Part shown: positions 19,667-21,910 of the stretch, in pieces
Layout of the letters: each line of letters opens with the position of its first letter
How positions within the stretch are numbered: position 1 is the stretch's first letter
From: Actinomycetota bacterium
GTDB lineage: Bacteria > Actinomycetota > Acidimicrobiia > Acidimicrobiales > Ilumatobacteraceae
Direction of reading: 5' to 3'
DNA: 32,102 nt
Assembly (NCBI GenBank): GCA_009702045.1
Contig: WLIV01000038.1
Location: forward strand, 1-32,102
Program-made: the position numbers and the translations under genes
The notes under the pieces: model-generated
Databases searched by the model: none
The model's input: the letters and a program-made list of their open reading frames with translations, nothing else
Told to the model about the DNA's origin: nothing

Positions 19667-20869
19667 GTGCCCTCCCCACCCGCGTTTCGCGTGTTCGGGT
19701 TCCCTGTCCAAGTGCGGTCAGGGTTCCTGATCCTGCTCGTCCTGATCATCCTGGTGAATCCGGGAGCACGCGGTATTTGGCTGGCTGCGTTCATCGCGCT
19801 GTTCACCCTGCTGCACGAACTCGGCCATGCCTTCGCCGCACGGGCCACGGGCGCCGAGGCGGAGATCGCCCTCGACTTCATGGCCGGCTATGCGTCGTTC
19901 GCTCCCACCCGAGCGCTCTCGCGCTGGGAGCGGGCGGGCATCTCGTTCGCCGGACCGGCGGCGCAGATCACGGTCGGAACGCTCGCCTACATCGGGGCCA
20001 ACGGTGGTTGGGGATGGCCGCAGGTCAGCGACGATGTGGCGATCGCCGTGCTGTGGGCCGGGCCGACCATCGGACTGTTCAACCTGATCCCGATCCTGCC
20101 ATTCGACGGCGGCACGATCCTCGAACAGTTCATCTCGTACTTCGCCCCACAAAGGGCGCGACGGATCATGTTCATCATCACCGTCGCAGTGGTGTTCAGC
20201 ACTGTCGCTTTCGCCATGACCCGTCCCGCTCTGCGGCCGTACATCATCTTCATGGTCATGCCGCTGCTGTCGGTCGCGCAGATGGCCACCGCGGGGAAGG
20301 CCAACACCGCTCGGGATCATGCGCAAGCGGAGTTGGCGCGTGCAGAGGCCCTCGCTTGGGCGACCGGCGATGTGTCACGGTTTCCGGCGGGCCATGTTCC
20401 GTCGCCGTGGTATCGCGCTCACCAACAGCTCACCCAGGGCCACCCGGAGATTGCCAGGGAGCTCGTGCTCGCGGACCTGCAGAGCCACGAACCGCTCGAC
20501 TGGTGGCCGCCCGATGCGGCCCCACTCGCGGCCCTTGCTGAAGTGGTCGCCGAGTTGCCGCGGCCGCTGCCGGTTGGCCGCCCATTCAGCTCCTTCGTGC
20601 TCTCCGGGGTGCTGCTGCGCATCGGCGAGTATGAGGCGGCAGCGCACTACGCCGCGTCCGCCTATGGAAACGGCCGGGCACCCATGTCGGCGATCCACGT
20701 GGCCCGCGCGGCCGCCGCACTGGGCGACGCGACCACCGCGATTGGCTGGATCCGCACCGCCACCGCCGGCGCCCCACTCAACGTCGTGCGCATCGCCGTC
20801 GCGTCTTCACCCGAGTTCGAGCCGCTGCGCCACGACCCAGCCCTGGCCGCCGTCCTCGCCCACCCCTGA
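19667..20869 (+). CDS. M50 (site-2 protease) family membrane metalloprotease with C-terminal helical domain
   Basis: A 400-aa membrane protein. A hydrophobic helix (FLILLVLIILV, about 20-30) is followed by IALFTLLHELGHAFAAR with the zinc motif His50-Glu51-x-x-His54. A later membrane segment carries LFNLIPILPFDGG, with Asn139 and Asp147, the third zinc ligand of M50 proteases. Two more helices (IMFIITVAVVFSTVAFAM, PYIIFMVMPLLSVAQMA) follow. Residues ~205-400 are soluble and built of helical pairs (YEAAAHYAASAYG, ALGDATTAIGWIRTA) reminiscent of TPR-like repeats, so they may dock a partner. There is no PDZ domain, unlike RseP. The family cuts membrane-bound substrates such as anti-sigma factors, or processes peptides; the target is unknown. 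The GTG start is supported by a -10-like box 6 nt upstream. Confidence 0.85.
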   Translation: MPSPPAFRVFGFPVQVRSGFLILLVLIILVNPGARGIWLAAFIALFTLLHELGHAFAARATGAEAEIALDFMAGYASFAPTRALSRWERAGISFAGPAAQITVGTLAYIGANGGWGWPQVSDDVAIAVLWAGPTIGLFNLIPILPFDGGTILEQFISYFAPQRARRIMFIITVAVVFSTVAFAMTRPALRPYIIFMVMPLLSVAQMATAGKANTARDHAQAELARAEALAWATGDVSRFPAGHVPSPWYRAHQQLTQGHPEIARELVLADLQSHEPLDWWPPDAAPLAALAEVVAELPRPLPVGRPFSSFVLSGVLLRIGEYEAAAHYAASAYGNGRAPMSAIHVARAAAALGDATTAIGWIRTATAGAPLNVVRIAVASSPEFEPLRHDPALAAVLAHP

Positions 20870-20885
20870 CCGGGTCGCCGCCCGG
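20870..20885 (+). terminator. Short GC hairpin after the M50 gene, possible weak terminator
   Basis: CCGGG (20870-20874) and CCCGG (20881-20885) flank a 6-nt loop directly after the M50 stop codon. The stem is only 5 bp and has no T-run, so this is a weak call. Confidence 0.25.
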
Positions 20886-20895
20886 CCCCGCCCAG

Positions 20896-20919
20896 CCCCG
20901 TCCCCGTCCCCGTCCCCGT
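20896..20919 (+). repeat. Four tandem copies of CCCCGT
   Basis: A simple-sequence repeat of four perfect 6-bp units inside a C-rich non-coding stretch (20881-20946) between the M50 gene and the palindromic repeats. Length variation between strains would be expected. Confidence 0.7.
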
Positions 20920-20946
20920 CCGGCCCCCCAGACCCCGGCCCCCCCA

Positions 20947-21059
20947 GGTTGGGCGCGATTCATGTCGTTGGTGTCCGGCGCAGCTCCCACGGGCGCGAAA
21001 AATGCGCACAACCGGCACGAACCGCACCCGTACGACAGCAGCGGCACGAATCGCGCCCA
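20947..21059. repeat. 113-bp palindromic intergenic repeat, copy 1
   Basis: First of two direct copies (111 of 113 positions identical to copy 2, 128-bp period). The unit from 20950 is bounded by perfect 12-bp inverted ends (TGGGCGCGATTC / GAATCGCGCCCA), extending to 26-nt imperfect arms (20950-20975 with 21034-21059, 22 of 26 matching). Inside is a second inverted pair, ACGGGCGCG (20989-20997) with CGCACCCGT (21023-21031), so the strand can fold into a nested long hairpin. It lies between convergent genes. Short reading frames crossing it have no start signals and are not called. Confidence 0.85.
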
Positions 21060-21074
21060 CGAGAAAGCGGGGCC

Positions 21075-21187
21075 GGTTGGGCGCGATTCATGTCATTGGT
21101 GTCCGGCGCAGCTCCCACGGGCGCGAGAAATGCGCACAACCGGCACGAACCGCACCCGTACGACAGCAGCGGCACGAATCGCGCCCA
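21075..21187. repeat. 113-bp palindromic intergenic repeat, copy 2
   Basis: Second copy, separated from the first by 15 bp (21060-21074). The two differences from copy 1 are G to A in GTCGTTGG/GTCATTGG and A to G in GCGAAAAATG/GCGAGAAATG. The 12-bp inverted ends and the inner inverted pair are kept. It ends 28 bp before the stop codon of the ygfZ-like gene. Confidence 0.85.
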
Positions 21188-21214
21188 GTGGGGTGGGGTG
21201 GAGGCGCGGGGCAG

Positions 21215-21910
21215 TCAGGAAGGAAGGTCGCTGCGCTTGACGTAGGCGAGCGCGAACTCGCTGTGCGACGAGGTGACGGTGCCGACACCGTCGGACACGC
21301 GAACACGCTGCAGCAACTTGGGTGCGGTGGCGCCGCGACTGTCCATCCGCTCGACGAGTTCCTGACCCGGGTAGCAGCCCTTGCTGAAGCTGACGGCGAC
21401 ATCGGTGATACCGGTCTCCGCTGGAATCGTGTCGCCGGGCACGATCTCCGCACCCATCTGCGGCCAGACGGCGTCGATACGTGCCGCGAGTAGCTGTTCG
21501 GGCTGAGCAGGTTCGGCATTCGCAGGCGGTTGCGGAGCGGGGCCGAGTACGTCGACTCCCCCACCCCACGACGCCAGACCCTCGACCTCAGCCGCGCCTT
21601 CGCCACGGATGGCGATGCACGTCCACGGCAACACTTCGATCTCCGCCTTCACACGGATCTTGAACCGATTGAGACGGGCCATCATCACGTCGCCGAAGCC
21701 GAGATCGGTGTCGAGCACGAAGGTGTCGTCGGCCATGCGCCACACACGGGCCAGCACGTCGACCTTGCCGGTGGGCTGCAGCACGAACGTCCACGCCGAC
21801 GACCCAACCTGGAGCGGTCGCAGCTCCTGCGAGACCTGCGATTGCAGATACGAGGCCGCGTCGGGGCCACTCACTTGGACGACATCTCGCGGGTACTCAC
21901 AGAACCACAT
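21215..21910 (-). CDS. ygfZ: YgfZ/GcvT-like folate-binding protein
   Basis: A 231-aa protein of the YgfZ (COG0354) group, a tetrahydrofolate-binding relative of GcvT needed for assembly or repair of some iron-sulphur enzymes. The diagnostic K-G-C-Y-x-G-Q-E block is present as SFSKGCYPGQELVERM, with the conserved Cys. The N-terminal part shows SGPDAASYLQSQVSQEL and LQPTGKVDVLARVWR, also typical. It is shorter than E. coli YgfZ (326 aa), with a reduced C-terminal barrel, as in other actinobacterial members. The ATG at 21908-21910 is preferred, with GAGAGGG upstream; the in-frame GTG 15 nt earlier contains that ribosome-binding sequence. It is divergent from the membrane protein gene at 21971. 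Confidence 0.85.
   Translation of the reverse strand: MWFCEYPRDVVQVSGPDAASYLQSQVSQELRPLQVGSSAWTFVLQPTGKVDVLARVWRMADDTFVLDTDLGFGDVMMARLNRFKIRVKAEIEVLPWTCIAIRGEGAAEVEGLASWGGGVDVLGPAPQPPANAEPAQPEQLLAARIDAVWPQMGAEIVPGDTIPAETGITDVAVSFSKGCYPGQELVERMDSRGATAPKLLQRVRVSDGVGTVTSSHSEFALAYVKRSDLPS

Follow-up and report, generated by a model that had tools for sequence, protein, structure and literature searches.

The structure of the tandem pair and its neighbours

Two nearly identical palindromic units lie in tandem between convergent genes in an Ilumatobacteraceae genome (Actinomycetota), and the question raised by this locus is what kind of element they represent and what maintains it. The window, by which we mean the whole stretch of DNA analysed, is 32,102 nucleotides long and belongs to contig C32 of a 3.65-Mb genome (G000). 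Our answer is that the pair are probably REP-like palindromes with a dedicated nuclease, an AbiEi-type winged-helix (wHTH) protein with a Vsr/EDxHD-type domain that is unrelated to RAYT and is encoded elsewhere.

The two 113-bp copies occupy positions 20947-21059 and 21075-21187, start 128 bp apart, and are identical without gaps at 111 of 113 positions (98%). Copy 1 is a four-arm palindromic repeat whose canonical orientation is on the minus strand, where it is matched by the sequence-only repeat model R1 (C32:20947-21033); copy 2 lies on the same strand. The outermost 12 nt, TGGGCGCGATTC and GAATCGCGCCCA, read as perfect inverted ends. The outer arms of 26 nt are 85% complementary in copy 1 (20950-20975 and 21034-21059) and 81% in copy 2 (21078-21103 and 21162-21187). 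Nested between them is a 39-nt inner hairpin, which in copy 1 has the form GGGCGCG-N25-CGCACCC (20991-21029, columns 6-44 of alignment A1, described below) and in copy 2 is placed by the 128-bp offset at 21119-21157; the arms, hairpins and spacer have no strand assigned. The inner-hairpin format of copy 1 reappears in several genera. Between inner and outer arm runs a conserved linker with the minus-strand sequence GTGGGAGCTGCGCCGGACA, located at 20972-20990 from A1 and the core motif, and a 15-bp spacer (21060-21074) separates the copies. The neighbouring genes encode a Peptidase_M50 protein upstream (19691-20869, plus strand) and a GCV_T folate-binding, YgfZ-like protein downstream (21215-21910, minus strand). 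The architecture given in the original prediction, namely the tandem pair, the 15-bp spacer, the 12-bp ends, the 26-nt arms, the nested pair and the convergent neighbours, was reproduced in full, and its statement that the unit occurs only here within the window agreed with our search, in which strong matches to the 113-bp unit on C32 were confined to the tandem pair.

A dispersed repeat family in the genome and its relatives

The 113-bp unit matched many sites across G000 with a recurrent core motif, and a single-arm pattern gave 69 matches in this genome compared to 4 for the reversed pattern. When R1 was searched at a cut-off of E<=0.001 against 221 genomes of the family, matches were obtained in 21, comprising 13 of the 15 genomes of the genus and 8 outside it, where the matches were weak. 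Within the genus the counts were 21 each in G000 and its sister genome G011, 17 in G008 and G014, 14 in G001 and G012, 13 in G013, 12 in G004, 8 in G006, 5 in G005, 4 in G010, 2 in G003 and 1 in G007, with none in G002 and G009; at least one of the 21 matches in G000 is partial and adjoins another match. Across the genus the sequence of the repeat is species-specific while its layout is constant and its length almost fixed, as judged, like the gene setting below, from 89 R1 matches from among those listed and 31 copies from G000 and G011. The repeat is thus dispersed, extragenic and length-constrained. Single arms also form two arrays: G000 C12:60005-60100 is a direct tandem array of six 16-nt arm copies of the GTCGGGCGCGATTCGT type (L010), and C9:3991-4088 has three arms in direct tandem at 41-nt spacing, an array longer than that of G011 (L004).

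A local tandem duplication without wider meaning, to which the original prediction would have reduced the pair had neither further copies nor compensatory changes been found, is refuted by these dispersed copies in G000 and its relatives. The greater likeness of the two copies to one another (98%) than to the counterpart in G011 (92%) fits such an event, yet the 21 matches in G000, the repeats in 21 of 221 family genomes and a spacer that was not duplicated along with the unit leave it next to no probability.

History of the site

In G011 the orthologous place holds a single copy, the counterpart of copy 1, followed by sequence equivalent to the spacer of G000 (CGAGAAAGCGG...), and copy 2 is absent. 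Copy 2 therefore appears to be a clean extra unit of ~111 nt that was gained recently relative to G011, without duplication of the spacer. We hold this with moderate confidence, given the divergence of the sequence further on and a G011 contig that starts 56 bp upstream of the repeat. Target-site duplications, which had been proposed as a check on mobility, were not seen at the single site comparable with G011, where the flanks have diverged. In the other genomes of the genus, the orthologous gap contains a divergent element in unchanged orientation in G008, is short and element-free in G009, G005, G006 and G013, and holds other sequence in G010, G002, G001, G004 and G003; the M50 neighbour was not found in G014, and the query gene was unmatched in G007 and G012.

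Comparison of 20 element loci of G000 with 17 stretches of G011 showed that 14 share both flanks and element; the 17 stretches are element-bearing by selection, and empty sites elsewhere are invisible to this comparison. Since at least 14 sites are common to the two genomes, most copies are not recent. Five loci (L003, L008, L017, L018 and L024) had no counterpart among the 17 element-bearing stretches, and the locus at C12:60445 sits in a block missing from G011. At C12:60165-60570 (L022), ~400 bp past one element are replaced by 41 nt in G011, through deletion or insertion, and this block contains a second element of the G008-like type.

A nuclease-like gene bracketed by the repeats

Comparison of flanking genes identified one locus that bears repeats in six genomes of the genus (G000, G011, G004, G005, G008 and G012). 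Wherever both sides are visible, inverted repeat copies lie ~1.1 kb apart around a gene of ~309 aa, which in G000 is located at C54:121852-122769. Named by eye from their translations, the neighbours at this shared locus are glutamine-amidotransferase-like and NuoN-like, and no AbiEii-like partner was recognised by eye among them.

Two full-length proteins searched against Pfam matched AbiEi_4 above and MTES_1575 below the cut-off, and PADLOC called the ~309-aa protein AbiEi. As the MTES_1575/DUF559 matches mostly fell under the curated cut-off, the assignment as a nuclease rests on the predicted fold. The AlphaFold2 model, generated with 21 sequences, had a pLDDT of 90.7. Residues 3-198 of this predicted model resembled the AbiEi antitoxin 6y8q (Z 12.4, rmsd 4.2 A, 185 aligned), and residues 203-307 resembled the catalytic domain of I-Bth0305I, 3r3p (Z 12.8, rmsd 2.3 A, 96 aligned), as well as Vsr, 1cw0 (Z 10.4). 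According to the model, the protein joins an AbiEi-like region to a domain of the Vsr/homing-endonuclease-like type. Residues E206, D238, E249, D251, H256 and D265 are invariant in alignment A2, which contains 21 of the 22 orthologues and leaves out the interrupted gene of G007; we take the conserved acidic and histidine residues to be those of the EDxHD motif.

Apart from the AbiEi-nuclease, no gene was repeatedly found between repeat copies. The transposase-family search, which covered Y1_Tnp (PF01797, the RAYT domain), was negative in all 15 genus genomes, five of which are <90% complete, and positive in 5 of 14 control genomes. The earlier suggestion of a REP/MITE-like mobile palindrome family holds to the extent that the repeats are dispersed, extragenic, palindromic and multicopy; they are not members of REP-RAYT, Y1_Tnp being unmatched in the genus. 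That they are MITEs of a classical transposon with an unrecognised transposase is very improbable: the terminal inverted repeats and the one apparently clean extra copy would suit such an origin, set against the lack of a target-site duplication at the copy-2 site and the repeated bracketing of this one gene.

Plasmid sequences contained no match to the nuclease gene, and the matches among viral sequences, of which 80 of 82 loci were kept, covered mostly the nuclease domain, with best segments 25-49% identical. The lack of plasmid matches and the mostly partial viral ones are in keeping with a gene of the chromosome that is passed on largely by inheritance, as RAYTs are described to be at the species level (PMC3116915). 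A scan of GTDB R220 contigs identified 27 orthologue loci, all in MAGs, the titles of which name Actinomycetota, Actinomycetes/Actinobacteria (no further rank), Acidimicrobiia, Acidimicrobiales, Acidimicrobiaceae or Ilumatobacteraceae. Such nucleases are not rare in the phylum, with homologues at E<=1e-15 in 56 of 396 sampled genomes.

Association of the repeats with the nuclease

An orthologue group was defined by at least 270 bits and at least 44% identity, thresholds placed at a break in the scores once these had been viewed. Of the 221 family genomes 22 carry a member of the group, and 10 of these carriers belong to the genus. R1 repeats occurred in 15 of the 22 carriers and in 6 of the 199 non-carriers (Fisher p 1.1e-13), and outside the genus in 5 of 12 carriers and 3 of 194 non-carriers (Fisher p 1.4e-5), relatedness being ignored in both tests. 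At least three exact GGGCGCG-N25-CGCGCCC hairpins were present in 8 of 22 carriers and 4 of 199 non-carriers; the reversed pattern gave one match in each of five genomes. These p-values overstate the case, owing to the relatedness of genomes and homologues and to a cut-off for orthologues that was chosen with the scores in view.

By eye, most of the 22 orthologues have palindromes on both sides, the first upstream of the start codon and the second usually directly past the stop codon, and the 38-39-nt palindrome format recurs across several genera. The flanks were compared by the best local match, in either orientation, between the 250 nt upstream and the 250 nt downstream of each gene, with z>6 against 200 shuffles taken as significant and palindromy not required. 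The test was significant for 22 of 27 genes of the orthologue group, in which second copies are counted, for 14 of 18 nearer paralogues and for 11 of 26 phylum-wide homologues, compared to none of 39 control genes (highest control z 2.3). It was thus non-significant for 15 of 26 phylum-wide and 9 of 45 nearer homologues. Within the family, 19 of 22 orthologues were significant, the failures being G011, where one side is reduced, G007, where the gene is interrupted, and G214. Any repeated flank can satisfy the test, and some of the phylum-wide matches (L280, L286) are long direct repeats; the set also includes the near-duplicates L226/L227, L273/L275, L272/L274 and L206/L207. Paralogues of ~30-35% identity had been intended as negative controls and were dropped in favour of ordinary genes, as most of them carry their own, different palindromes. 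R1 had no match beside eight such paralogues, and most of those with ~30% identity lie between matched palindromes whose sequences are unrelated.

The dispersed copies mostly resemble the sequences beside the nuclease in the genome from which they come. With the nuclease-flanking copies at seven loci and the G142 copy excluded, 67 of 88 dispersed copies were most similar to the flanks in their own genome, G000 and G011 being pooled, and none of 2000 label permutations reached this value (mean 11.5, maximum 63). Without G000 and G011 the figure was 40 of 60. Counter-cases were G001, in which 9 of 12 copies were nearest to G012, G013, with ~4 of 9 nearest to its own flanks, and G005, with 0 of 3. 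Lineage-specific versions of the repeat bracket the nuclease, and the pattern of one nuclease and one palindrome recurs for many members of the family.

This pattern was also found with other palindromes. In the complete genome G116, an arm of the palindromes that flank the nuclease (C1:4620178-4621077) gave 59 matches compared to 3 for the control. All but one of these (58) form 29 palindromes with identical 18-nt spacing, of which 2 flank the nuclease and 27 lie elsewhere; the 23 palindromes that were compared are nearly identical. G000 itself encodes a second AbiEi-nuclease homologue (L273, gene C45:126722-127594, locus C45:126569-127717) bracketed by a different palindrome of 39-40 nt with CGAGTGGGTGGTGRC arms. 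Nine palindromes of this type were read from the match list, 2 flanking the gene and 7 elsewhere; with one mismatch allowed the arm gave 73 matches compared to 49 for the control, so that many single-arm matches are due to chance. At a third homologue (C6:69468, L272) the flank match was not significant.

Gene setting, folding and covariation

The gene setting was assessed for 120 copies, of which 12 without a gene on one side were set aside. Genes were predicted with a home-made caller that was trained on four window genes and checked by eye on the genes of the window, and the counts include many mutually orthologous copies from G000 and G011. None of the remaining 108 copies lay inside a gene; 54 were between convergent, 35 between codirectional and 19 between divergent genes. 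Of the element-free gaps of at least 20 nt in these loci and in the window, 9 were convergent, 66 codirectional and 34 divergent, so that convergent gaps account for 54 of 108 copies and 9 of 109 element-free gaps. Among the codirectional copies, 16 were oriented with the genes and 19 against them.

These positions bear on whether the palindromes are primarily operators, by which an AbiEi-type repressor or defence nuclease regulates its own gene, the dispersed copies being a regulon or decoys spread by other means. AbiEi is described as binding inverted repeats of its own promoter and autoregulating (PMC3985639); the palindromes upstream of the nuclease start codon and the predicted AbiEi fold of the N-terminal region agree with such a role. 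An operator would, however, be needless just past the stop codon, where the second copy usually lies, and only 19 of the 108 copies are divergent whereas 54 are convergent. The nuclease residues are moreover invariant, and we regard a primarily regulatory role as rather unlikely.

RNA folding of copy 1 gave z-scores of -4.2 on the plus and -4.1 on the minus strand, with 0 of 200 shuffles as good on either strand; for single-strand DNA the z-score was -2.7, with 1 of 200 shuffles as good. Alignment A1 comprises 31 repeat copies (19 from G000, 11 from G011 and 1 from G008) over 89 columns with zero indels and a mean column identity of 81%. Left out were the false pattern matches L018@1353, L069@1754 and L040@1255, as well as the copies C5:12786, C12:60445 and G011 C275, which are cut or degenerate. 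For the inner hairpin, 75.4% of cells were paired compared to 71.7 in shuffles, 28 cells had changed on both sides compared to 12.8 +- 3.2, and the covariation score was likewise above all 500 shuffles, as were the other two measures; slid controls scored lower. Two stricter measures were within the range of the shuffles: 8 pairs had changed on both sides compared to 6.1 (84 of 500 shuffles as high), and 17 further pair types were counted compared to 13.8 (33 of 500 as high). The RNAalifold consensus of A1 chose a different pairing with almost no covariation, favouring in part one between the 5' arm of the inner and the 3' arm of the outer pair. That pairing was rejected as a conserved structure, its covariation not being above shuffles. 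Rfam covariance models gave no match up to E 1 at 20800-21300. Compensatory change, for which the original prediction had asked to test, was thus seen on three of five measures, and the two stricter measures, Rfam and the RNAalifold consensus lent the reading as a structured RNA no support.

The T-tract terminator search at the window's copies found 1 weak site compared to 0.4 +- 0.6 in shuffles. A bidirectional terminator, the other role that had been proposed, consequently lacks support in the sequence despite the enrichment in convergent gaps. More broadly, the repeats might serve the host as bidirectional terminators, stabilisers of mRNA 3' ends or supercoiling sites, and the nuclease might merely neighbour two of them. 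Strong folding of copy 1 and the convergent enrichment would be expected of such elements. We nevertheless consider this improbable, as there are only ~20 copies per genome, T-tracts at the window's copies do not exceed chance, the lineage-specific sequence mostly tracks the nuclease flanks, and the association with the nuclease recurs with unrelated palindromes.

Relation to known systems and a proposed mechanism

REPtrons and TIRtrons are described as short, often paired and dispersed palindromes with a gene that is flanked by repeats and specific to them (PMC3733652; PMC3116915). The repeats studied here share with REP/REPIN-RAYT systems short extragenic palindromes, often paired and in 3' intergenic DNA, and bracketed genes specific to the repeat. 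The 39-nt inner hairpin, with 21 R1 matches in G000, falls within the 20-40 nt of REP palindromes, and a dedicated bracketed gene is present, here a non-homologous one. In REP-RAYT systems this gene encodes a Y1 HUH tyrosine transposase, whereas here it encodes an AbiEi-wHTH and Vsr-like nuclease. The GTAG tag is also missing, columns 1-5 of A1 being variable (CGTAC, TCAAC, CGTGT...). The arrangement of repeat and nuclease is therefore REPtron-like, yet it is not a member of REP-RAYT, since the enzyme is unrelated and the tag is missing.

GTAG REPs are explained by RAYT, and for a second large class, the CGTC REPs, a dedicated transposase is reported to be lacking (PMC3733652). Our repeats resemble that class in being palindromic with no Y1_Tnp match in the genus, and differ from it in lacking a consistent CGTC tag in A1 and in their host, an actinomycetotal bacterium. 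I-Bth0305I (EDxHD, Vsr-like) has, by the predicted model, the same catalytic-domain fold, but it resides inside an intron, whereas the protein here is fused to an AbiEi-type region and bracketed by palindromes. With the AbiE type IV toxin-antitoxin the protein shares a predicted N-terminal winged helix and AbiEi fold, and AbiEi binds inverted repeats; the nuclease domain, and a shared locus in which no AbiEii-like partner was recognised by eye, set the two apart. The MTES_1575 domain has been described as a Vsr-type REase, and palindromes go unmentioned in the available part of its description (PMC3710099). No earlier report of a pairing of palindromes with an AbiEi/nuclease was found in full-text searches of open-access PMC papers.

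We propose that the nuclease would recognise, cut and spread its palindrome. The AbiEi-type winged helix would recognise the cognate palindrome, and the upstream copy may double as an operator for the nuclease's own gene. The nuclease domain might nick or cut at the palindrome or next to it, whether this forms a cruciform, is single-stranded at the replication fork or is duplex. When the break is then repaired or copied, the copies in permissive 3' intergenic DNA could slowly multiply and become homogenised. The nuclease would thereby play the part supposed for RAYT with REPs, through an unrelated catalytic domain. AbiEi-DUF559/Vsr-type proteins are common in Actinomycetota and probably annotated as antitoxins. 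We suggest more tentatively, as something close to an even call, that these proteins may drive a large group of palindrome systems, selfish or domesticated, that has so far gone unrecognised, in which each nuclease brackets itself with its own palindrome of ~33-50 nt and spreads or polices it around the chromosome in a homing-like, non-HUH manner. In that case the arrangement of REP-RAYT would have been invented independently.

Palindrome families that are each tied to their own AbiEi-Vsr nuclease offer a concrete candidate for the origin and upkeep of palindromes that lack a RAYT, and point to a role, open to testing, for the proteins classed by Pfam as AbiEi antitoxin or DUF559. The idea is directly testable, as each pair of nuclease and palindrome predicts its own target sequence.

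Exceptions and further loci

Repeats were also observed apart from an orthologue of the nuclease. G014 and G010 have 17 and 4 R1 matches, respectively, and no orthologue, and G087, G219 and G220 have 13, 4 and 21 GGGCGCG-N25-CGCGCCC hairpins and no orthologue; in G003 and G093 the repeat matches were weak only. The G087 hairpins (C1:470122 and others) are near-perfect among those listed, and a distant homologue in that genome (C12:391399) has a different palindrome. In G116, two palindrome pairs ~900 bp apart (L399 and L400, C1:135774-136724 and 482299-483213) enclose ordinary-looking genes and no nuclease. The interrupted nuclease of G007 (L212, C13:7644-8423) has flanks with no significant match, in a genome that is 63% complete and has one R1 match.

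G006 carries two copies of the nuclease (L204, C13:40782-41705, and L236, C7:247528-248451), with 65% and 62% identity to that of G008, and a different palindrome, GGTGCGCC...GGCGCACC, lies on either side of the C7 copy. At two pairs of repeat-bearing loci in G012 and G013 (L036 and L034, L188 and L197), the flanking proteins are 94-99% identical. The nucleases of these two genomes, compared by eye in A2, visibly differ far more than do these flanking proteins, and exchange or shared contigs may possibly account for the near-identical repeat loci.
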